Part shown: piece by piece, positions 3,347 to 26,134 of the stretch
Numbering within the stretch: the first letter of the stretch is position 1
Layout: each line of letters begins with the position of its first letter
Assembly: GCA_031275175.1 (NCBI GenBank)
Contig: JAISPD010000011.1
Span: forward strand, 1 to 46,637
DNA from: Mycoplasmataceae bacterium
GTDB taxonomy: Bacteria; Bacillota_I; Bacilli_A; Mycoplasmatales; Mycoplasmoidaceae
DNA: 46,637 nucleotides
Direction of reading: 5' to 3'
The notes under the pieces: model-generated
What the model saw: the letters and a program-made list of their open reading frames with translations, nothing else
What the model was told of the DNA's origin: nothing
Databases searched by the model: none
Program-made: the position numbers and the translations under genes

Positions 3347-3637
3347 ATGAAAACGAATAAAATAAAAAATTACAAATTAAAAAAACAATCAGAAAAACTA
3401 TCTAATAAAATAGTGGGTTTTTCTGCTTTAAAAGAACATAAGTCATTCGCAAATGTGATCGATGAACAGCAATACATTAAAAATATTATTAAGATTGCCT
3501 CTGTTTTCTTTATTAATGCATACACATTAAATAAATATGCAGAGCATGCCTATTTGAATGAATTCATTAACTTTTACAAAAAACAATTATTACAAATAGG
3601 TATCACTGAATCTATGTATATGAAAGAGGACAAATAA
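3347..3637 (+). CDS. Hypothetical 96-residue protein inside the type I restriction operon
   Basis: A small gene squeezed between hsdS (1 nt away) and hsdR (its stop codon overlaps the hsdR ATG in a TAATG arrangement). It has an AAGGA-type ribosome binding site. The protein is basic at the N terminus (KTNKIKNYKLKKQ) and then helical, with a tail FINFYKKQLLQIG. No TGA codon, membrane segment or signal peptide. I do not recognise the family; it is too short for HsdM and lacks the NPPF methylase motif. The tight coupling on both sides says it is translated with the restriction subunits and may modulate them, which is inference. Confidence 0.7.
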   Translation: MKTNKIKNYKLKKQSEKLSNKIVGFSALKEHKSFANVIDEQQYIKNIIKIASVFFINAYTLNKYAEHAYLNEFINFYKKQLLQIGITESMYMKEDK

Positions 3638-6600
3638 TGCCTTCATTTAAAGAAAACATTCAAGAAAAGAAAATCATACAATTATTAAAAACTCAAGAAT
3701 GACGCTCTTGACACCCCAAAAGTGTACTTCCACATGATATAGATACTAACAACGAAGATGCTTTATTTAAACACTTTGTGGAATGCATAGAAAAAAATAA
3801 TCATGTAAAGTTTGACAAATTACAGCAAAAATATTTAAAACAGAAAATAGAAGCGATTAGAGATGACGGACAAACTTTTAATGTACATAAAGTATTTGAT
3901 TTTTTGTTTAATTCACAAACAATTAAAGGTGATGAAAAAGAAGACATTATTACCATTATTGATTGAAGAGATGTTAATAATAATATTTTTGAAGTATCTG
4001 ATCAACTATGATTTCATAAGGATTTTGATGGTGAATTTAAATATAGAAAAGATTTATTTCTATTAATAAACGGTATCCCAATAGTTTCTATTGAAGAAAA
4101 GAAATTTGATAAATCATTGAAAAACGCTTTTGTTCAAACGATAAAATATAGAAACTCTTGGGTGTCAGAACATACCATATTAAATTTGTGCATATTGCAT
4201 GTCATTACTAATGAAGAAGTTTCAATGTTATTTGGTGCAACTGATAATTTAAATTATTCAACCTGAAATGATAATAGTGATGATCAAAAAAATAATAAAG
4301 CTTTATTTCATTGGGCTGATTCATCAAACAATAGAATAAACAAAATTTATGAATTAATCAAAACGTTTTTCATTCCTAGTCATTTATTAAAATACCTTAG
4401 TGAATATGCCAAACCTGATAAGAAAAACAATACAGTTTTTTATGCAAAACCACATCAATTCCATGCAAACGAAATTATTTTAGAACACTTCGCTAATAAT
4501 TGAAAAAGTCCAGGGTATGTGTGACATGCGACTGCTTCTGGAAAAACTTTCACAATGTATATGGCATGAAATAATTTTAGTGAAAAACTAATAGCCGATT
4601 ATTCTATTTTACTAGTCGATCGTGTTGATTTAGATACCCAGACCACTAAAAAGTTTAAAGTATGAGAACAAGGGGTTAAGTCTACAGGAACTGATATTGC
4701 CATTCGTAGCAAGAATAAACTTATAAATGCCATTAAAAAATGTGAGAAAAAAATCGTAGTAACTATTGATATTTTTAATAACTTAATTAGTGATAAATAT
4801 GACACTTATGACCCTATTGAGAGTCAAATACCATGGTTTAAAAATTCAAAAGTAGCGATCATGTTTGACGAATGTCATCGCTCGTTGTTTGGCAAAAAAT
4901 TCAAAAACATTAAACAATACTTTTCTAATGCCGCTTTATTAGGGTTCACTGGCACGCCAATTTTTAAAGACAATAGTCTAGATTTTAATAATATTACTCC
5001 TGAACTGTTCCCAACACAATTACATAAATATGGATTAGGGCAAGCATTAAATGATGGTATTGTACTACCTGTTGATTATGAAAATGTAGATCTTAAAAGA
5101 ATAATTGATATAAATGAAAATGATACTAAAACCTTAGAACTTGATGATAAAGAGAAAAAACAAATTTGAAAAACTAAAAAATATTATGAACATCTCGTTG
5201 ATGATGTCGTATCAAAATTACAAAGTAAGACTTTAAATTTTTTTTATGCAATGCTAGCCGTTAGCTCTATAGATGCTGCTAATTTAGTTTATGAAATATT
5301 TAAAGGTGTCCAAAATTCTGAAACCAAAGAAATAAAACCTGGTAAATATCCTAATGTCAATGTAGTTGCTGATTTTTCTACAAATGAAAATGAGTTAATT
5401 GAAGAAACTAACGATGATGTGTTTGTTAAAAAGTGTGATAAAAAAGCATTTAAAAGACGGGTTATTGCTGACTTTAATGACATTACTGGTGAAATGATTG
5501 ATGGGAACGACGAAGCCCAATTTTCAAGAAGTTTAATAGATAACTTAGAAAATAATCCTGCATATTCTAAAAATTTAAAAGGGCCAATACAAATAGTTAT
5601 AGTGGTAGACAAAATGTTAACGGGTTTTAATAGTGACTATGTCAATTGTTTATTTTTAGATAAATCTATTACTTCATATCGCTTAATTCAAGCCACAAGT
5701 CGAACTACACGAGTCTCCACTGAAGAAAAGAAAAAGGTAGGTTTTTTAATTGCATATCGCATTAGTGAGAAAGAAATTGAAGAATCATTTAGTGAATATT
5801 CAGGTGATAAAAAAATTAAATTGACTGAATTGGTCAACAATTACGTTAACAGAATTAATGAAATTAAAGAATGTGTAAATATCATTAAAGCAATCGTTCC
5901 GTTACCAATAGATATGGATAAACCAGAGTTTTATGAAAACGAAAATAAATTAAGTGAATTCATTAAACACTTTAGAATCCTAAAAACACTAATTGATATT
6001 TTTCAACGCTATGACGAATATAAATGAAATGATATTAACATTACTATAGAGGAGTATGGTGAATATTTAAGCAAGTATATCAACCTTCCAAAAAATACTA
6101 ATAAACAAGAAGAACAAGGTCAAGATAAAACGTTTGATTTTAAATTAGAAATTGTGTTCAGCGGACATATTGACTCTAAAAAAATATGAGAATTAATTAA
6201 AAAAGTTAAAACTAAAGATAATTGATACAAAGAAAGCCGACCAAATATTATCAATATCATTTCTGATAGTGTCTTATCACATTTTAAATATGAGCTATTG
6301 AAATTTCTCGATAATGATGTATCAAGTAATAATTACAACATCTTAGACATTAGAGGATTTAAAATTAGGTTTAAATCGTTTTTAGAAACTTTATCAGACA
6401 TTTTTTATCAATTAGCAAACAAAATTAAAAAAGAATATAAAATTGATTTAAATAATGACCAAATTAAAAATATCTATACTCAATATAAATTTAAACCAAA
6501 AGACTCAGATTGAATTGAAACATTAATAAGTACCACGGGCCTTGAAAATGCTAACAAACTTTATGATTTTTTCTTCTTAACTTTTAAAACATTTTTAGAT

Positions 6601-6651
6601 AAAAGCAATCAGATAAAGAAAATAGTAGACCAAGTTGCTCATGAAATTTAA
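3637..6651 (+). CDS. hsdR: Type I restriction enzyme HsdR (endonuclease/translocase)
   Basis: 1004 residues, start fixed by the TAATG overlap and a GAGGA ribosome binding site. HsdR translocates and cuts unmodified DNA after HsdS/HsdM binding. The nuclease region has D139 in RKDLFLLINGIP and E153-x-K155 in IVSIEEKK, a PD-(D/E)xK arrangement. The motor part has Walker A HATASGKT at about 297-304 (the usual form is H-T-T-G-S-G-K-T), motif II DECH at about 411-414, motif III LLGFTGTP, and the motif VI region LIQATSRTTR. The C-terminal 250 residues are helical, as expected for the HsdM-docking end. At least ten in-frame TGA codons read as Trp. The length is normal, so the gene seems intact, but its methylase partner is absent from the window. 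Confidence 0.93.
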
Positions 6652-12903: not shown

Positions 12904-14250
12904 TTATATTTTCCCTCAGTTCAATTGTTGGACATTTTTAGGATGTTTATTTTTAATAATTTTATCAATTTTGCCATTAGCGACTTTGATTACCATAGTA
13001 GCTAGATCTGCTAATATAGGGTTGTGAGTCACAATAATAATTGTGGTTTTATACTTTTCATTAATATTAACGAACTGTTGCATTATTTGTTTAGACATTT
13101 CTTCATCAATTGCACCAGTTGGTTCATCTCCAAAAATAATTAATGGGTTTTTAGCCATACTACGAGCAATTGATACACGTTGTTGTTGCCCGCCAGATAA
13201 TTCACGCGGATATTTATTACGTTGTTCATAAATACCAAACATTTTTAATAATTCATCTATGTCTAATCTTTTAGCAACATTTTTTTGCAAACTACTACCA
13301 ATTTCAACATTTTCGCGAACAGTTAAATTAGATAACAAACCATATTGTTGAAAGATATAACCGATATTGTCGCGACGAAATTTTGTTAGTTTAGTTGAAT
13401 TGTAATTAATTAGATTATGGTTAGCCACAATAGTTTTACCATAACTTGCTGTATCCATCCCTGAAAGAATATTTAATAATGTAGTCTTACCACTACCTGA
13501 TGGTCCTAGAATAACTACAAATTCTCCATATTTAATGCGCAATTGAATATTCTTTAATACTTTGGTAACTAGTGAACCATTGTTATAATATTTGATAACA
13601 TCTTGAAAATCAATTAAATATTTACTACTAATCTTAGCTTTGCTTTGTTTGCTCTTTTTTTCCAATTGTCTTACTAATTGAAAAATGTATCGATCAACAA
13701 ATGTCTGTTTAAGACCCTTAATATAATCTGCGTAATACTCAATGCGTTTTTTGAGTTGATAAAGACGAATCTTCAAATATCGTTTCTTTGCATGTTTAGC
13801 TTTTGGTAAGACAATGTTTAATAAATATGCATAACGAATTTTCATTAAATACAAATGTCTTATAGCTGTTTTAATTTTATTAATGGTATGAACCTTGAAT
13901 GGAAATAATTCTTTTTGACTTAAATCTTCAATGTATTCTATGTATTTAGCCAGTTGTGGCAAAGTCAATGTTCTATGATTCTCATTGGTAGATAATTCCA
14001 TTCTTTTGATCATGTATTGAGCATTAGTATCTTTTGCTAATAGCTCATTATTTTGATTAACTAATTTTATTAATGAATGAATAAACTTTCGTAATTCTTT
14101 AAACTGTTGATGATTTTTAGGAATGTATATCGCTAATCGTTTTTCAATTTCTGCAATTTGAGTGATATTTTTCTTAATTTGTAAATTACGAAGATTTTGA
14201 CGTTTTCGTAAATTGGTAATTAATTCTTGTTTATTGTCTATCATAAGCAT
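12904..14250 (-). CDS. ABC transporter ATP-binding protein with long N-terminal extension (MG467-like)
   Basis: 448 residues. The ATPase domain is in the second half: Walker A GPSGSGKTT at about 247-255, Q-loop IFQQYGLLSNLTVREN, signature LSGGQQQRVSIARSM, Walker B LIIFGDEPTGAID, and H-loop IIIVTHNP. This is the LolD/MacB-type sequence that partners FtsX-like permeases. The first 200 residues are a Lys/Leu-rich helical, coiled-coil-like extension not found in ordinary LolD-type ATPases. The stop codon of the permease gene directly abuts this ATG (TAAATG), so the two are translationally coupled. The last residues (NWGKI) follow a TGA read as Trp. Confidence 0.9.
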
Positions 14251-17200
14251 TTACTCTTTTATCATATCTATCAAACGATCACGTTTTAAAAAACTATACC
14301 CTCAAAGACCACTAATAAGGAAAATTAAGAGAATTCCTCCCATACCCACTAAAAATGATCATCATTTAACATTCGCCAGTAATAAAATTCCTCCACCTGT
14401 AAAAATAATCGCTTGAAAAGCATAAATTAAGGCAAAACTTAAAGGAATGGATAATAGTAATCCTAGAAGGATCACTGGAACATAAATTGATAAAAATGAA
14501 GCAGCATTTTCTTTATCATAATATCCTAGAGATTTAAGAATCGCTGCTAATTTTTTAGAATCACCGATTAACATCACAGTAATTAACATAACAATAATCA
14601 TTACCATTAATGATACAATGATCAAAATAACATTTTCAATTTGTGAAATGGTATTAGATAGATTATTAAATATTAAATGAGTGGAGCTTTTATCGTTTGC
14701 TCATTGTACTAATAAAGTTACCGAAGTATTCCCATACATCTGTGTCAACCAATTAGTGAAAGCATTTACATTGTCATCAGAAATAAATGCATTATAGGTA
14801 GCTTCTTGATTTGCGCCAACACTAACAGCCTCCTGTCATGTTAAATATTGATTAGTAACAGCCTTCCCTGCTTCGGTTTGTCAATATCCCGTAATAATGT
14901 TAGCGAATTCTAAATTAGCACTTTGCTTTAATATATTTTTAACAACATCAGAATTTAATGAATCGTTCCCAGGATAAATTCCTGATGGAGAATATAAACT
15001 GTTCCCTCCATTCAATAAACTACTGCCATTAGTTTTTTGCGTAAATACACCATTAAATCCGTAAGGAATAATATTGCCATAAGGTTCATTGTTATTTACA
15101 TAATTCCAACTTGGATTAATTCAAGTATCGTGAGGATCATTTACTGTCGTAAATTGTGACAAATCCATTAAATCATTAGCTTTCTGAGTGCCATCTCTTT
15201 GTGTTGAATCTACCTGTGCAATGTTAAATGGTACTTGATATCAATGCTCTAAATTTAAAAGTTCAAGTATAGAATCTTGCTTTTCATTGTTAATGTAGTA
15301 ATTATGCAGATTACAAGTTTTTGGTAATTCAGGAATCTGTTCGGTTAATCGACTACGCAATCCTAGAATGTAATTAGCTAATTCTTGATTTGTAAAGTAT
15401 TCTTCACCCTGATAAGTGGTGTTTACACCAACTATTTTAAAAGGAACTGTTAAGTCTTCATTCATTCCGTTGATTTCATTAGTGAAACGATTAGCTTTAT
15501 TATTAACTTTAAATTGAATAGTATCATTGACATTTAAATGATACTTATGTTGTGCGTAAGCATTAATAATAATAGGGAAATAACCTGCTTTAATGCCCTT
15601 TATGGTATTCTCATCATTAATTAAATCGTTAATCCTCTTATTATTATCACTACTTGTTAAATTGACATATTGACTATTAGATTTCAAACCGATAATTTTT
15701 GTTGTATCATTTGAACCTACTTTATTGGTAGAAAGATAAGTATATGTTTCATCACCTTTTTCATCACTGCTAGGTTGTTTGAGACTAACTTTGTTGTAAA
15801 TTATTTGATAATCGTTGTCTGAAGCTGTATCATACTTTTGGTTAATAATTTCAAAGTTATTATTAGTATAAACATAATTCAAAAAACTCATAAAATCTGG
15901 TTCTAGATTACCAATCGAGATATCGAAAATTTTTGGAATACAATTGTCTTTATTTAATGAATAATTGTATGGACAATTAGGGTCAATTCGCTGATTTGGA
16001 TCTGTTGTTTCTAACTGAACAAAATATTTGTTCCATTGTTTTTGATTATGAAATAATTCATAATATTTACCATATAAATTATTTGGGTCCGGGTTATTCG
16101 GATTAGTTTTATCTTCTCAAGAAGTGGCTTCACCTAAAGCTTGAATCATTTGAACGGTTCTGGCATCAGCCATATTTTTACTATTTTCAGGCATTAAAGA
16201 TACTGCAATTGACCAAGGGTTTGATGTCATGCCGAAGGCTCCAACAGTAAAGTCTAAACCCGTTTTGAACATCGAGTGATTTTTTAAATACATTAAATCA
16301 TTGGTTTCGCCAATGGCATCGCTCATCATTGGATAAAGAATGGATGCATGGGTTGTTTTACCATCTTCACTAACAAAACTTTCTTCAATTTTGCCTGTGC
16401 TAAGAGTTGCAGCATCATAAATATCATAGGTTTCATTGTAATAAACTTTAGGAATACCAAAAAATTCATCATTTTTTGTTTCAGGTGATGCTTCGCCAAA
16501 AACGTTTTTATAAGAAAGGTCTCCTGCAGTTTGTGAATGAGAATCAAAATAAATGCTAGGAATCCATGAAGTATTATCATTTGATTGTACAAACCCTGTC
16601 TCACCTGAAATATCTGCATTAACGGGAATATATTGGCCTCCCTGATCTGTAGGTGAATATAAATCAATGGCATAACTATAATTACGACTTGCAAATGTTT
16701 TTTGTTCGGCATCACTAAATTTACCATATGTATTAATACCAAAAACTAGTGCAGAAATGGATAGAGAGACCATAACCGAAAGAATGATTAATTTCCAAAT
16801 AGAATTAAAAGCAACGGTAATCCTAAATTTAGTCATTATGCCAAAACTACGAAATGGGGCTTTGATGTGACGCGCAACGAAACTACCTCTAAATTCACTA
16901 CCATTTTTCATTAAATCAACAGTCTTTTCACGAAGCACAACAAAAGTTGTAATAATGGAAACCGATATAAATACCAAAAATGGCAACAAAACAGAAATCA
17001 ACAAAACTCAAACATTAAATGAAGCTATCGGAGTTGGCAGCATTCAATAATTTGAAAATAAATTTATTGCTGGATTTTGCAAGAAAAAACCAATTAAATA
17101 TCCACCAATACCTCCCACAATTGCTGGTAATAATGCAAAGGGAATCAAAGACACAGCAATTCTACGTTTATTAATCCCGTTGGCTTGCATAACCCCAATT

Positions 17201-19038
17201 TGTGTGCGACTATTACTAATGTACCTTTGGACTACTATGGCACAAATAAGTAAACTCAAAATTACCACAAAAAAGATTAAAGAATTATTAATAATTTGAA
17301 TTTTATTTACAAGTAAGGGAATAAAAGCCACTCTAAAGGCGGAAGCATTGAGTACATCATTAGTATCATTTACAAAATAACAAGCTTGAATCCCTTGAGG
17401 CCAGCTCATCAATTCTTTAGCTGTTGCATTCATGGAATCTAAAGTAGCTGTTCTATCAACATTACCATTAAAAACACCTACTAAATAATTTTCAGTTTGA
17501 TTGCCTCGATAAGAATCAAAGATTCTTTTATAAACATTCGTGTTGCCAAAAATAATACATTCTTTATTAGGATTTGGGGTTGCATGTTGAATATCAAAGA
17601 TAGGATAAATAAAATCAGCAGTAATACCACTACCAATAACTACGATTGGTAAATTAGCACTATCAGTGGAATTAAGAATTACATTCTTAGCATGGTCTTT
17701 AATGAAATTTGCAAATTGTGTTTGTGTGTAATTTTGCGTTAAATTGTTAGCATAACCAGCATTTAAATCATTAATAAATTGGTCACGGTTTGTAATTTGA
17801 AAAGGTGATATATTGTTATGTTGTAAATATTCTGGGGAAACAACAGCGTAATGTGCAGTCCAATCTTGTAATACTCATGATTGTGGTGTTATGGTGTTCC
17901 AATTGATTGAATAACGATACCCTTTGTTTTGTAAAAAGAATTTAGTTTTATAGTTATTTAAATAATTTATGTAATCACTATTATTCCATAAATTAGGATT
18001 GGATAAATTTTTTATATCATTGTATAAAATTAAATCAGTCCCCTGTAATTGCGAAACATCATCCCCACGTGAAAGTAATGCAAAAAACGCTTGTGCTTTC
18101 AGATCAGCTTTAAATTCTTCAAAAGCATTAGGTAATTCATTATTGTAAGATAAACAAATACCTATGGGGTCGTCAGTATCTGGAAAAAGCGTTTTTAAAT
18201 CAATGCCACTACCTTGCATTGGATTAAAATTAGTAATAGAAAAATTATTTTGTTGCTTATCACCAAACAAGACTACCTTATCTATCTTATCCTCTGGGTT
18301 AGATTGAACGATTTTATAAAGTTTACCATCGGGTGAATTATTAATATCTAACGATTTAAAATTTCTTCATGATACCTTATCAGTCATTTCTGGAGAATTT
18401 AAATAAGTTTGCATTGGTGTATCTGTTTGTGTAACAACATTAATTAAATCAATTTCTAATTGATTTTCTTGCAATAGTAATAATCTTAGATCACCTGAAT
18501 CTCCTAATTCTTCATCAATTTGACTTTTAGTTTTAGTAGATATATGATCTGGGGTACTATTTAAATAGCTTAAACTTGGATAAGCATCATTTTCAATTTG
18601 AATCAATGGGTGCAATAATGTGTTGTAATATGGATCAGTCGTTTCATTATGCTTTTGGTAAAAATCTCAAAGTAATGTACCTTTTTGATCATTAACATTC
18701 AAACTAATTTGATATGTACGGAATGTTTCACCTTCTGATGTAGTTTGTACAGGCCAAGGAACTCTCTGGTCATCACTTGATAATCCCATATAAGCAGAAT
18801 CTTCGGGGTTATTATCAAAATCATACTTAGGGTTACCATTATTGTAATTTTCAGCAACCGTAAAATCATGCAAATTGCCAGAAGTTGATATATCGGAATA
18901 TTCATTACTAATATTAGTGGAAACACTATTTAAAACGGTAAATATACCCACTGATAAAAATATTAAAAAAGTCAATCCAATCACTGAAATTTTATTACGG
19001 CTTAATGAGCGAAAAACGTTCTTAATAAGATTTCACAT
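14251..19038 (-). CDS. Very large FtsX-type ABC permease (MG468-like)
   Basis: 1595 residues, a single open frame when TGA is Trp. It begins MWNLIKNVFRSLSRNKISVI, the usual start of FtsX/MacB-like permeases, with a first membrane segment at about 18-40. A large extracytoplasmic part (about 45-555) leads to an FtsX membrane block (about 555-690, including ISNSRTQIGVMQANG and a Gly-rich helix). A further helix at about 735-760 precedes a second extracytoplasmic part (about 765-1465), and a last FtsX block ends the protein (about 1465-1595). This two-half layout matches mycoplasma MG468 proteins, thought to act with the MG467-type ATPase; the substrate is unknown. A TATATT box ends 9 nt before the ATG. 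Confidence 0.9.
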
Positions 19039-19236
19039 TATTTCACTAATATATCAAAATTAAATTATAAATTAAAAAGAGTATAATGTCAGTTGTTTAT
19101 GGAATCCATCAACCTAATAAAGCGCTGATTAAAAAATTCCTTAACGATTTTTGTTGTCTCATTCATTTTTTCTGACAAACTACCTATTTGTGCTAATCGC
19201 CATCCAATAAAATACAAGTCACCCCTGTAATTTTTT

Positions 19237-22200
19237 ATGAATACCACTAGTAGTTTATTAAGAAAAAAACAAAGTGCTGATCGAACATCAAAAATTATTT
19301 CACTATCATTATCATGACTATTTTCATTGATTTTTTTCTTATTAATTATCTTCATTGTAATTAAATCAATTAATGGATTTGAAAAATACGGATGGAGTAT
19401 CTTAGGCGGCACTTTTAATCTAGATGATCAAGTTAATAAAGCTTCTGTTTGACTACCTTTATGCATTACGATAATGATCTCAATTTTAGCAATTGCGATT
19501 GCAGCACCTGTTGGCATCAAAACTGCCATGTTTATAAAATACCGATTACCGGTAAAATACCAAAAGTCAGTTAGAATTGCCGTTGAATTATTAGCCGACA
19601 TTCCTTCGGTTATTTTTGGTTTATTTGCATGCGAGATGCTGGGAATGGTTTTGAAATACATCTTTCATATGCCTACTTCATACAACTTGATTACTACAGG
19701 TTTTATGCTCACCTTCATGATTTTACCAACGATTGTGTCTTTATCACTTAATGCTTTAGATGGCGTTGATAAAACTTTGATTTCTGCTTCAATGGTTTTA
19801 GGCAACACGAAAACACGTTCCATTTATAAAGTGTGTAAAAAAGACGCACGCAATGGAATCGCTGTTGGTACGATTATCGCATTTGCTAGAGCGATTGGAG
19901 AAACAATGGCGGTTTCCATGATTTTACAATCACAAGGTTATAACCCAATATTTAATGGTGGATTTTTAGATGTGGCTACTAGTGGTTTAAGATCATTAGG
20001 TAGTTTAATTGCAGCCAATATGTTCGCTGAAGGCGGAGGACCAGCACTACAATCTCTTTTATTTGCTTTTGGGTTATTTATGTTTATTTTTGTGATGATT
20101 TTAAATGGGATAGCAATGTATGCTACTAAAAAACGTAATAAAAGCAGATGAGAATGGTGAAATAAATTTGAAAAATACTTGGGTAGATTTATCATTTTTG
20201 TGCCTACACAAATTAAAATTTTCTTGGAAAAAATAACTTATCGTGGCAATGTTGATAAACGAAAGAATTTATCAAAATATGTCACACAACGTATTCAAAA
20301 AAATAAATTTATTAAAATTTATACTTTTTATAAAATTTTTTGAGAAATTTTTTCAATTACCTTAACGATTGGTTTTCTTGCGTGAATTACATTAGATATT
20401 GTCGGATTTGGTGGGGTAGCACTATCACAATCAACCAATACTATCTTTTCATTTGCTAACAATACTACAGGTCAAGCATTTATTAATACATTGCTAATAA
20501 TTATCATTGCTATTGGTATCAGTTTGCCGTTTTCTTTGTTAATTGCGATTTACCTTAATGAATTCGCTAAAGAAGGACGAATGAAAAAGACTTTATTGTT
20601 CTTTATTGATTCACTTGGTGCCACTCCTTCTATTTTATTTGGAATGTTTGGATTAATATTTTTCATTCAAACACTTGGTATGTCAGATGGTGGGGTAGCT
20701 GGTAAATCACTCTTAGCAGGAGCTTTAACTATTTTAATAGTTATCTTACCTGTTTTTATTCGCACCGTTCAACAAGCATTGCAAACCATTCCTAAAGAAT
20801 TACGTACTAACTCTTATGCATTAGGTGCAGGTAAATGAGAAACAATTAAGAAAATTGTCTTACCAGCTGCTCGCCAAGGTATTACTACAGCCATCGTACT
20901 TTCTGTCGGACGTATATTAGCTGAAACTGCGCCGTTATACTTGACTAGTGGTTTAACATCATCAAGTTCCATTTCGTTAATGAATCCTGGACAAACACTC
21001 ACAACTAGAATTTATGCACAAATTTATACAGGAAGTATCCATGATGGTACAAATATCATGTATGAATGTGCCTTTGTCACCATGTTTTTAGTACTACTTA
21101 TCATTTTGGTTGTCCATGTTGTTATTCCAGCTTATTACAATTACAAACAAACAAAATTGCAAACTCAAAGTAAGAACACTCGTAAAATTCAAGAATTATT
21201 TGAATTAGGTCATTTACATTTTCAAAAAATTTTTAATAAACAAGATTTGCTTATAAGAACCAAGAACTCCAAAATTAATGATAAAAAAATATCGCTGAAT
21301 TCACATCGCGGCCCTAGTCATACATCAAAACGTTGGTTGAAAAGAATGTCCATTATTTTCTTGTGTTTAATTCCTATTGGTACAATTACTGCTTTTGCCA
21401 TTGAATGATCAAATAAAATGCCAATTTCTTGTATAGGTTCTAGCGGGGTAAAACCATTTATTGAAAACTTATCGCAAGACTACATGAAATCTAATAAAAA
21501 TGTAGATATTACTATAGATGCTGGTGGCAGTGGGTTTGGCATTGAACAGATTGCTAATGGCTTTGCCAACATTGGTAATGCTTCCAAAGATCCTTATAAT
21601 GTTGTTCAAAAAGAAAGTAACGGCTTCAGAGATAAATGAACCAATAATAATATTAAAACTGTTACTATAGGGTGAGAAGGCATCTGTATGGTTTATATCC
21701 CACCTAAAGGTTTAAATTTATCACCAGATCAATTAGATAAATTACTGGTAATTAATCAGAGTAATATTCAATATTTCATGCGTGTATTTAGCGGAATTGA
21801 TGATCATGATCCTAATAAACTTCCTACTAAATACCAATTTTTAGGGGGATACATTAATGACCAAAGTGGTATTACATTAACCGATCAGCAAAAAACATTA
21901 TTAGATCATACATCTATCATTCCTTATGTAAGAGCTGGTGGGTCTTTAACATCAGGAACTGCCGCTTCCTTTATCGGTAATAGTAATCTTGGTTTTAATG
22001 AAAAAACAGACTTATCATCACAACAACAAGCAGCGTTTGATAATGGTAATTATGGTACTGCCCATGGATTAGTACAAACAGATGAAGCTAATAGTAGAGC
22101 TTGAGACATTTTTGCTAAATCTAATCACCCTGGAGAAATTGTGTATTTATCCTCAGGATTTATTGCACAAAACTTAGAATTAATTAGAAATAATGGTTAT

Positions 22201-22548
22201 GGAATTATGGCATATGGTGATAAAGGTATTCCTTTTAATGTAGATGAAATTGACACAATAGGTGGATACAATTGATTTAGACCTTTGAACACCATGTTAA
22301 ATGTAAGTAATACTCAATCTAATGAAGTTAAATTTGTCCAAGCATTAATATCTGATCAATATCAAAATAAATTGGAAAAAATTGGTGCTAAAAAATTACA
22401 AACTGATGAAAGAGATTGGATGTTGGTAAATATAGATAATAATAATTTTGCTTCAGATGTAGCCTTAGCAAAACATTACCTTCCAGGTTGAAATTGGGAT
22501 GAAAATTGACATTTTTCAACACTTCCAGTGCTTTCCCATGAGCAATAA
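19237..22548 (+). CDS. Fused phosphate ABC transporter PstC-PstA-PstS
   Basis: One uninterrupted frame of 1103 residues. Residues about 20-305 are a PstC-type permease (membrane segment near 25-45, [13 protein letters not shown], permease loop [12 protein letters not shown]). Residues about 365-630 are a PstA-type permease ([14 protein letters not shown], loop [33 protein letters not shown]). After a charged linker and a membrane helix at about 700-722, residues about 725-1103 are a PstS-type phosphate-binding domain with [21 protein letters not shown] and [10 protein letters not shown], followed by [12 protein letters not shown] and [13 protein letters not shown] read every codon across the three parts and found only TGA (Trp), no TAA or TAG, until 22546-22548. 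Mycoplasmas often fuse PstC and PstA; adding PstS is unusual. pstB and phoU are not in the window. Confidence 0.9.
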
Positions 22549-22610: not shown

Positions 22611-23249
22611 TTAACCTATTTTCCCTTGATACATATCTAAATAGATTAGTGAAATCGTGTGAGCCATTTCAGCATTAGTAGCTACATTCTTGAAATGATC
22701 TAACCTTTTGCTGATACTAGGAATAGTTTTATTAACGGTTTTACGATATTGTTTAGAAGAAGTGATGCGGTCATCTACAATATTTGGATGTTCTTGAGCA
22801 AGTTGATCAATAATTTTAGATAAGTATTGTTGGTGCTCTTGAAAATTCTTTAAATCTAATTCTGAATTAATACCTAATGCTTTTAGTTGCTGTTTTTCTC
22901 GTTTTTGTTTACTATATGATTTATATCATTCAATCTCAGTCATATGCTGTTTTTTCGCTTGATGAAGATTACTTAATTTAACAATAAGTATATAAATGGC
23001 TAATATCATACTTAAGCTTTCGGCGATGGCAATACCGATTACTTCAATGATGGGTGTTTTTTCAAAAATTAATAAGATGGCATAAGTAATCCATGCGATA
23101 CTACAAATTGGGTAGAGAATGTACATTCACTTGGAAATGCTGATAGTATTTCTCGTATGCAGTATTTGTCACACTCCTGGTACTAACAAAATAAATGTTA
23201 ACAAAACTGCTAACCACATAAAAATTTGAATTAATACAATATACAACAT
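22611..23249 (-). CDS. PQ-loop/SemiSWEET-like membrane protein with cytosolic tail
   Basis: 212 residues. Three predicted membrane segments: about 3-24, 41-62 and 67-92. Between the first two is VPGVWQILHTRNTISIS, close to the PQ-loop pattern P-Q-x-x-x-x-x-x-T-K-S-x-x-x-I-S, and the second segment reads ICSIAWITYAILL, like the W-x-x-Y-G pattern of SWEET/SemiSWEET sugar carriers. A three-helix unit of this kind works as a dimer in SemiSWEETs. The extra 115-residue C terminus is charged and helical (KQKREKQQLK, QEHQQYLSKIIDQL) and is not part of known SemiSWEETs. A GAGG ribosome binding site precedes the ATG. It is divergent from the PAP2 gene. Family call is tentative. Confidence 0.6.
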
Positions 23250-23302
23250 GTTTTACCTCTGTGAAAAATATAAAATTACTTAATTGTATAAGTAATTATA
23301 GA

Positions 23303-23331
23303 TTGACAAAAAATGAATAATCTTTTCTAAT
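23303..23331 (+). promoter_or_regulatory. Promoter of the PAP2-PHP gene pair
   Basis: Perfect -35 TTGACA (23303-23308), a 17-nt spacer and -10 TCTAAT (23326-23331). The expected start of transcription, about 7 nt after the -10, is within 2-3 nt of the ATG at 23341, so the mRNA would be leaderless or nearly so. This is the best complete promoter in the window. Confidence 0.75.
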
Positions 23332-23340
23332 TAAGCAGTT

Positions 23341-24249
23341 ATGGATAAATTTTTAATTTTCCCTAAATGATATCAATGAATTTGTAAAAGAATATTTTTA
23401 GCATTATTACCAACTGTCATTTTGTTCGCTTTACAGCATTGAATCTGATTCATTGCAGGTGCAATCGTGAAACAATATCCAGCTAGTGTTTTTACTGAAC
23501 CATTAACTCCTTTAGATAAATTTCATATAACCGATGGTAATTCTTGGTTTCTAATTTTTTATGGTTTATCCTATGTGTATTGATTAGTCATGCCAATTGT
23601 TATTTATAGTATATATGGACCTAAACTTTATTACCGGTTTGTATGAACATTAGTTTTTATGTACTTGTTTGGTGGCATTATTTTTATTGCGTTCCCAACG
23701 AGTTCTAAAATTTTATATACTGATAGTGATTTCAGTGTGACTGGTACTGACATTTTTTCAAAATTCATTGAAAATATGCGCGTTCACAATTCTGGGGTGT
23801 GTGCTTTACCATCGTTCCATGTGATTGGCACATATTCGATTTTTTTGATTCAAAGATCTTCTTTATCTAAGAAATACTCAAAGAACATCAGTAAAAAAAC
23901 AAATATCAGTCTGCTAATTTTTAGTTCCATATTCAATGTGATGGTTGGTATGTCAACTTTTATGACTCATCAACACTTTATTTTAGACTTTCCTAGTGCC
24001 ATTTTATGTTGTGAAATCGTTTATTTCATAATGCTAAAGTTAGAAAAAAAACCGAACATAACTCAAAGATTATTTACCAATTTAAATGTGGCCTTAGCTT
24101 TTGAAAATGCCCAAAACACGACATGGGGGGGGAATTTGTGTACTAAAATAATGAATTTAAAGCACCGAACCTTTTGATATGTACTAATAATAATTCTATA
24201 TCTTGTAGTTAATTTAGGTCTGCTCTATAGTTTCTCTATTGGTTTATAA
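23341..24249 (+). CDS. PAP2-superfamily membrane enzyme (first copy)
   Basis: 302 residues with about six membrane segments. PAP2 enzymes remove or transfer phosphate groups on lipids at the membrane. The second and third motifs are recognisable: LPSFHVIGTYSIF (P-S-x-H core) and MTHQHFILDFPSA (H-x-x-x-D core). The N-terminal motif K-x6-R-P is not clear. The layout and the motif spacing resemble both PAP2 phosphatases and AUR1-like phosphotransferases, so the exact reaction is open. A leaderless promoter precedes it, and the PHP-phosphatase gene follows after 3 nt, so the two form an operon. Eight or so TGA codons read as Trp. Confidence 0.8.
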
Positions 24250-24252
24250 ATT

Positions 24253-25038
24253 ATGAAATATGTTTATCACATTCATGATCAATGTTGTCGCCATGCCACT
24301 AATACTTTAGAAGATATCGTTAATTTAGCACTAAAAGAAAAATATCAAGAATTATTTTTTACTGAACATTGCCCACTTGACAATAATAAATACTTAGTCA
24401 GACCGTCACGTCAAGAAATTACCAAGCTCCGTGAACAAATTACAAAGATAAACCAACGCTATGAAAATAAATTAATCATTCATTTTGGTTTTGAAGCAGA
24501 ATATTCTAAATCAAATAAAACATACTTTGATCAATTTGTTCATGATCCTTTGTGTGATTATTTAATTTTTGGCAACCATTATCTCCACGATCTTTGACAA
24601 CCTAATCCAAGATTAGTTATGGAAGCAGCACATAGTGCTAAAGATTTAAAGCAATATTATAAAAATTCTGTACTCGCAGCTAAAAGTCGCATATTTTCAC
24701 TCTATGCTCATCCTGATATTTGATTACAAGCCTATCGTAAGTGAAATAAAAATGCTAAATGATTAACTAAACAAATTATTAATCTTAGCATTAAATACCA
24801 ATTACCATTAGGGTTCAATGCTAATGGTTTACACCAAATTCGTGATGGTTTTCATTATCCAGTTAAACTTTTTTGAAATGAAGTTGCCAAATCCAAAGCT
24901 CAAGTATTAATTGAAGCAGATGCCCATGATATTAATACATTGAGCAAGTCGTGGTTACAAAAAGCTAAAGCTGTGGCAATCCAGTATGGATTAAATAAAA
25001 ATTTAGTTGATCAGATAAAAATTAGATATTTCCACTAA
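24253..25038 (+). CDS. PHP-domain phosphatase, histidinol-phosphatase-like
   Basis: 261 residues. The PHP metal-binding motifs are present in order: H-I-H-D near the start (YHIHDQCCRHA), TEH in LFFTEHCPL, E in FGFEAEY, GNH in LIFGNHYLHDL, AHPD in LYAHPDIW and DAH in EADAHD. These match HisK-type histidinol-phosphate phosphatases. Mollicutes lack histidine synthesis, so the real substrate is more likely another phosphorylated small molecule, as suggested for mycoplasma homologues; that is inference. Downstream of the first PAP2 gene by 3 nt, so probably cotranscribed. Confidence 0.85.
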
Positions 25039-25091
25039 TTTTGTTATGAGAAGAATGTAGACATGGTGCAAAATTCATTTAAATACTGTGC

Positions 25092-25097
25092 TATACT
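25092..25097 (+). promoter_or_regulatory. -10 box 8 nt before the GTG of the second PAP2 gene
   Basis: TATACT preceded by TGC gives an extended -10 (TGCTATACT). It ends 8 nt before the GTG start at 25106 and so supports that start and a leaderless transcript. No convincing -35 is seen. Confidence 0.5.
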
Positions 25098-25105
25098 CGT
25101 GAATT

Positions 25106-26134
25106 GTGTTAAACAAAACTTCCGGTTATAAAAACATTTTTAAGAAAACTAACAAGCAATATATTTCCTTTTGAAAACATTGGATTTTAGAATGTTTAAC
25201 AATAGCACTGCTTCATTACATTATAGGTGAGGCAATATATATCATTTCGCGGGCTATCACAAGTCATATATATGGAGTTTATGACCCCACTCATCCTAAC
25301 AATCCAAATTTTTTAATATTGGAAACGTCGTTTGATAGATGAATGCCATTTGTAAAATACTTTATCGTTCCTTATACAACTGCTTACGCTTATTGAGTAA
25401 TTGGACCATTTTTGATTTATGGATTTATGGGGCGAAAAAAATTTTATCAATTTATTCTGAGTTCAATTGTGGTAAACATTTTATCAGTAGTAATATTTAT
25501 CACAATTCCCAATGGTATAGCTGCTAACTTTAGACCGGTTATAACTGAGCAAGATGCTAATAAAGATTTCTTTTTGCATATGTGTAATTGAACATTTACA
25601 ACTGATTCGTTTGATCAGACTTTCCCTAGTGGGCATATATGTTTATCCGTTTTGATTGTTATTACCTTTCGTGGTACATATTTTAAAAATGGTGTGAAGA
25701 GACTGACACGAACAGTAGCGTGATGTTCATTGATATATGCATTGTTAATTTGCACATCAACTTTGTTTGTAAAACAACATTATATTTTTGATGTATATGT
25801 TTCAATTTTTCTTTGTGAAATATTTATGCTGCTATTCTTAAAATGAAATTTCCTTACTGATAAATTGGAAAATTTTATGCATTGATTTAACTCTAGGCTT
25901 GGTTTAATTAATGATGAGAAAAATAAACCATTTACTAAATATTCTCAAAAGGCTGTTTTGGTTTGAATTGTTTGATTACTATGAATAGCTTTTACATTTT
26001 GAGCATTTTGAGAAACACAATGATTTATTGAAGAATTTTTGTTGAATATTGGGACGATGTTAGTTTGAGTAGTTATCACATTTTTTTACTATTTCTTCAG
26101 AATGATGAAGCATGAAAATCAAAAAATTAATTAA
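25106..26134 (+). CDS. PAP2-superfamily membrane enzyme (second copy)
   Basis: 342 residues from a GTG chosen because a TATACT box lies 8 nt upstream and no ATG is available in frame before the conserved part. Six or more membrane helices. Motifs: FPSGHICLSVLIV (P-S-G-H, motif 2) and FVKQHYIFDVYVS (H-x-x-x-D, motif 3). The region before motif 2 contains AANFRP. The C-terminal tail has an extra pair of Trp-rich helices, with many TGA codons (for example WLLWIAFTFWAFW). It resembles the first PAP2 gene in layout but the sequences are clearly different. Substrate unknown. Confidence 0.8.

Follow-up and report, generated by a model that had tools for sequence, protein, structure and literature searches.

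Phosphate uptake by Pst follows the scheme of type I importers, in which PstB binds the PstC and PstA domains and the receptor, docked at the outer face, delivers its phosphate to the pore. Receptors can also be built into the transporter. In OpuA (OpuABC), a hydrophobic transmembrane anchor and an 11-residue linker restrict the receptor's movement (PMC11065425), and in GlnPQ a covalent link joins the receptor and the membrane domain (PMC8025302).

The locus described here lies in a stretch of 46,637 nucleotides (the window), which is contig 7 of a single metagenome-assembled genome (MAG) of an uncultured Mycoplasmataceae bacterium (an 833-kb assembly of 33 contigs with 86% completeness). Our verdict is a triple fusion of Pst that is specific to this lineage and in which the genes have been permuted and relocated.

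One open frame with PstC, PstA and PstS domains

Translated with code 4, the fused gene was observed as a single frame in which 14 TGA codons are decoded as Trp and the sole stop is the terminal one (Table 1). Homology to the separate Pst genes of relatives spans every part of this frame; its 1103 codons are therefore not a chance opening. An earlier note on this DNA, made from the letters alone, had proposed such a PstC-PstA-PstS frame, and translation, NCBIfam, Pfam and Foldseek all bore it out.

The domain search that this note had suggested for the code 4 translation placed both permeases above their NCBIfam cut-offs, with TIGR02138 (PstC) at residues 16-300 (294.7 bits versus 196) and TIGR00974 (PstA) at residues 366-630 (301.9 bits versus 193). 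Pfam found two BPD_transp_1 domains and one PBP_like_2 domain (PF12849); the latter scored above its cut-off here as well as in all 18 aligned PstS sequences. The NCBIfam PstS family, TIGR02136, matched residues 729-819 with an E value of 4e-14, under its cut-off, as it is in every genome of the order and not just in the fused frame.

For residues 640-1103, a structure model based on the alignment with the relatives' PstS proteins (pLDDT 84) shows one long helix followed by a mixed alpha/beta domain, and its best Foldseek matches are the PstS crystal structures 1pc3, 4gd5 and 1twy (E values of 1e-12 to 1e-14). The helix occupies positions 58-82 of the 464-residue part that was modeled, close to the interval of about 700-722 given in the earlier note; hydropathy places it at 703-725. 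A full-length model made from 17 sequences was poor (pLDDT 58) and carries no information on how the domains assemble.

Table 1 Features of the fused pst gene (positions in the window)
Feature	Position	Strand	Basis
pstCA-pstS fused CDS, 1103 codons	19237..22548	+	code 4 translation; full-length homology
PstC permease part, residues 1-300	19237..20136	+	TIGR02138
PstA permease part, residues 366-630	20332..21126	+	TIGR00974
Basic PstCA C-terminal tail, residues 640-696, now a predicted cytoplasmic linker	21154..21324	+	PstCA tail alignment
TCA (Ser697) at the position of the relatives' pstS start codon	21325..21327	+	alignment
Membrane helix, residues 697-721	21325..21399	+	model, hydropathy, alignment
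Possible internal starts, TTG (Leu701) at 21337 and ATG (Met704) at 21346	21337..21348	+	
PstS phosphate-binding domain, residues ~726-1103	21412..22545	+	PF12849, Foldseek, conservation test

The join and the membrane anchor

The two genes are fused end to end. The PstCA tail, which is variable among relatives, runs to approximately the point where their frames stop, and the KRW start of PstS follows. The relatives' ATG-AAA-CGT-TGA corresponds to TCA-AAA-CGT-TGG in the fused frame, so that the pstS start codon is gone and the frame stays open. A stop or a frameshift between the PstA and PstS parts had been named in advance as the observation that would speak against the fusion, and the assembled sequence contains neither at the join. 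Third-position G+C is low and mostly unbroken across this region. Comparison of the linker with the PstCA tails of relatives, which are dissimilar among themselves too, gave p 0.11, and no significant similarity to the leaders of the relatives' pstS genes was detected (p 0.20). Retention of a pstS leader as the linker was rejected on the latter value. Neither leader nor tail homology pinpoints the exact breakpoint.

The separate PstS of genus relatives starts (MKRWIKN..LCLIPIG) with a helix that looks like an uncleaved anchor and is homologous to that of the fused protein; the anchor thus predates the fusion. A strict lipobox expression found no signal-type site in 18 PstS homologues. Its single match, at position 36 of L056, falls inside the ISCVGSS ligand-site motif, and the cysteine of the helix is missing or displaced in several homologues. 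A lipoprotein as the ancestral state of PstS was rejected for the genus, given the lack of a conserved lipobox in these 18 sequences. The suggestion that the tether replaced a lipoprotein and removed the need for lipoprotein processing does not survive this comparison. Judging from the alignments, what the fusion adds is a covalent link to the permease, not the anchor. Since PstS in this genus is already held by a helix rather than by a lipid, the fusion, if real, shows how small a change can make such a receptor part of the permease.

It should be considered that most PstS could still be made separately, by internal initiation at one of the two candidate start codons, with the fused product being minor or cleaved. 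Either start would retain the signal-anchor helix, the product from the TTG would resemble the relatives' N terminus, and weak or absent Shine-Dalgarno sequences are common to several genes of the window, the fused pst gene included. However, Shine-Dalgarno pairing is poor at both codons (duplex energies of -0.9 kcal/mol at TTG 21337 and -3.6 kcal/mol at ATG 21346), the native ATG of pstS is gone, and ribosomes completing pstCA continue into pstS. We regard a predominantly separate PstS as unlikely and prefer translation into one chain.

Gene order in relatives, relocation and conservation

The relatives with GTDB names comprise Mycoplasmataceae MAGs as well as Candidatus Hennigella equi. Of the other genomes in the genus, 25 carry the genes, and in each of these pstS is separate and lies directly upstream of the fused pstCA in the same orientation (one has it spread over two contigs). 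Most mapped relatives then have pstB after pstCA, followed by one or two small PQ-loop-like genes, phoU and often a gene that we take, from a reading of its sequence, to be purM-like. Ten genus genomes gave no PstCA-PstS match at all (G002, G004, G007, G008, G011, G012, G013, G017, G043 and G044); as some of these are more than 90% complete, parts of the genus may have lost Pst altogether.

The positions of PstA and PstS were also paired in the 123 genomes of the order for which both matches were listed. PstS was upstream of PstA in 119, on another contig in 3 and downstream in 1, the latter being the genome with the fused frame. Among the matches listed for the order, frames that join PstC and PstA and are about 600-730 residues long turn up repeatedly, so the joining of these two permeases is not new; it had been called known in mycoplasmas, and it proves widespread in this order. 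The new part is the PstS join. Among the matches listed for 392 sampled genomes of the phylum, none besides this frame continues from PstA into PstS, no second genome with the triple fusion was found in the genus or, by position, among the 123 genomes of the order, and no report of a PstS-permease fusion was found in open-licence papers. Homologues that are always split at this point had been put forward as evidence against the fusion. They are indeed split, with pstS upstream, in 25 of 25 genus relatives, which makes the fusion unique to this assembly and does not abolish it. The triple fusion appears to be genuine, a single event in a familiar transporter.

The earlier note had proposed looking for pstB and phoU elsewhere, and both are present on another contig, C1. 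The pstB gene (C1:17436-18410) matches TIGR00972 above its cut-off at C1:17439-18188. Near it, phoU (C1:15936-16631) has a match at C1:15990-16610, with PF01895 above and TIGR02135 under their cut-offs. No pstCA or pstS was found next to pstB and phoU on this contig, and the gene that now precedes pstB is divergently oriented. Two small PQ-loop/SemiSWEET-like proteins of 113 and 148 aa are encoded between pstB and phoU (L039 8643-9432; G000 C1:16642-17431), and one or two such genes occupy this place in most mapped genus relatives. The gene adjoining the fused pst gene (22611-23249, 212 aa) encodes a distant relative of these proteins.

The fused module itself sits at a synteny breakpoint, where the neighbors on the two sides differ in relatives. 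To its left is a two-gene ABC exporter block and to its right a block that is collinear in the relative G023. Since G023 has a similar phosphatase block without pst, the neighborhood of the fused gene is new. The left block (12904-19038) is a large exporter pair, made of an ABC ATPase and a 1595-aa FtsX-like permease that is kept in 14 of the 15 genus genomes tested. The right block (22611-26134) includes two PAP2-family phosphatases (23341-24249 and 25088-26134) and a PHP-type phosphoesterase (24253-25038). The intergenic segment 19040-19236 has no convincing relatives among the compared loci. A 22-nt inverted repeat (86%; 19033-19054 and 22641-22662) flanks the fused gene and may be due to chance in such AT-rich DNA. 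Farther away, 3637-6651 encodes an HsdR-like R subunit of a type I restriction enzyme.

A synteny breakpoint is also a place where misjoins are more likely, and an assembly artefact, with a chimeric contig fusing pstCA to pstS, has to be weighed. The fusion is known from one MAG, its join is absent from every relative, and the relatives' neighbors differ on each side of the site. Yet only a few codons separate the join from either gene end, strand and frame agree across it, the start codon is altered and no stop intervenes; chance misassembly would seldom produce a junction with all these properties. Because pstCA and pstS are single-copy in the genome, no repeat is known at the join, which in addition lies at least 21 kb from both contig ends. 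An artefact therefore appears distinctly improbable, and we continue to treat the fusion as probably genuine.

Conservation was assessed by aligning the fused frame with its relatives. The fused frame retains every one of the 72 columns invariant in PstS and 189 of the 191 invariant in PstCA, where both changes are I to V. In a leave-one-out control, intact relatives lose 0-2 PstS and 0-4 PstCA invariant columns. For both halves, pairwise identity to relatives is close to the values among relatives, and a sensitive profile finds no PstS in this genome other than the fused copy. Taken together, the conserved residues, the relative-like identities and the sole PstS point to purifying selection on both halves. 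These facts bear on whether the open frame is instead the leftover of a decaying gene pair, in which a rearrangement broke the transporter. Such decay would fit a pst module standing apart from pstB and the old operon and the lost start codon of pstS. It is very hard to reconcile with 1103 codons free of in-frame stops, with intact PstS invariants and a PstCA altered at just two invariant positions, both I to V, and with the retention of pstB and phoU in the genome; we give it hardly any weight. With nearly all invariant residues kept and no other PstS found in the genome, the fused importer is probably functional.

Proposed importer and comparison with known systems

The best explanation of the data as a whole is a working single-chain Pst importer (PstC-PstA-PstS) that originated by relocation and circular permutation, to which we assign a probability of roughly 0.6. 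The single MAG, the synteny breakpoint and the possible internal starts keep our confidence in a working single-chain importer from being higher. The fuller version, a single chain with exactly one tethered receptor, derived from a permuted and relocated pst segment and served by an ATPase encoded elsewhere, is likewise rather probable. From the sequences we infer one polypeptide in the cell, as well as its transport mechanism, stoichiometry and route of origin, as follows. The chain would comprise PstC, PstA and a basic linker, cytoplasmic and about 55 residues long, mostly derived from the old PstCA tail. The old N-terminal anchor of PstS would then serve as an extra membrane helix, so that the phosphate-binding domain faces outward. 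The ATPase that binds to it would be PstB, supplied from the other contig, with PhoU, whose gene is near pstB, as the regulator. The tethered PstS domain would capture phosphate and pass it to the pore that PstC and PstA form within the same chain, giving one receptor per transporter. As to its origin, the pstS-pstCA segment left the pst operon in this lineage, probably with a circular permutation, in which the end of pstCA was joined in frame to the start of pstS. This might have occurred through an excised circle or through a tandem duplication followed by deletions; the data fit either route.

If real, the fusion offers a natural test of a Pst importer at a fixed 1:1 ratio of receptor to transporter and a clean case of gene fusion through operon permutation in a reduced genome. 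Its interest is evolutionary and mechanistic; it adds neither a mechanism, a family nor a system.

The closest system is Pst itself (PstSCAB, with a fused PstC-PstA in Mycoplasmatales). The fused frame has the same PstC and PstA families in the same C-then-A order and a receptor of the PstS family, and its genome also encodes PstB and PhoU. It differs in that the pstS of relatives is separate, upstream of pstCA and usually near pstB, whereas here it is fused downstream and lies outside the operon. In architecture, the frame resembles OpuA, whose receptor is attached to the C terminus of the permease by an extra membrane helix and a short linker. OpuA, however, has another substrate, belongs to another family and contains two permease-receptor chains, hence two receptors, whereas the gene sequence of the fused Pst places both permeases and one receptor in one chain. 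GlnPQ shares with the fused Pst the covalent link between receptor and membrane domain; it differs in having two tandem receptor domains per chain, amino-acid substrates and another family. The receptor and the permease of the fused Pst belong to the same polypeptide at the level of the frame, that is, in its predicted product, which upholds the analogy with OpuA and GlnPQ that had been drawn for this locus. By sequence it is a member of neither the OpuA nor the GlnP family, as its best NCBIfam and Pfam matches are Pst families. The fused Pst is thus best read, by analogy, as an importer that would work like OpuA and GlnPQ without belonging to them.
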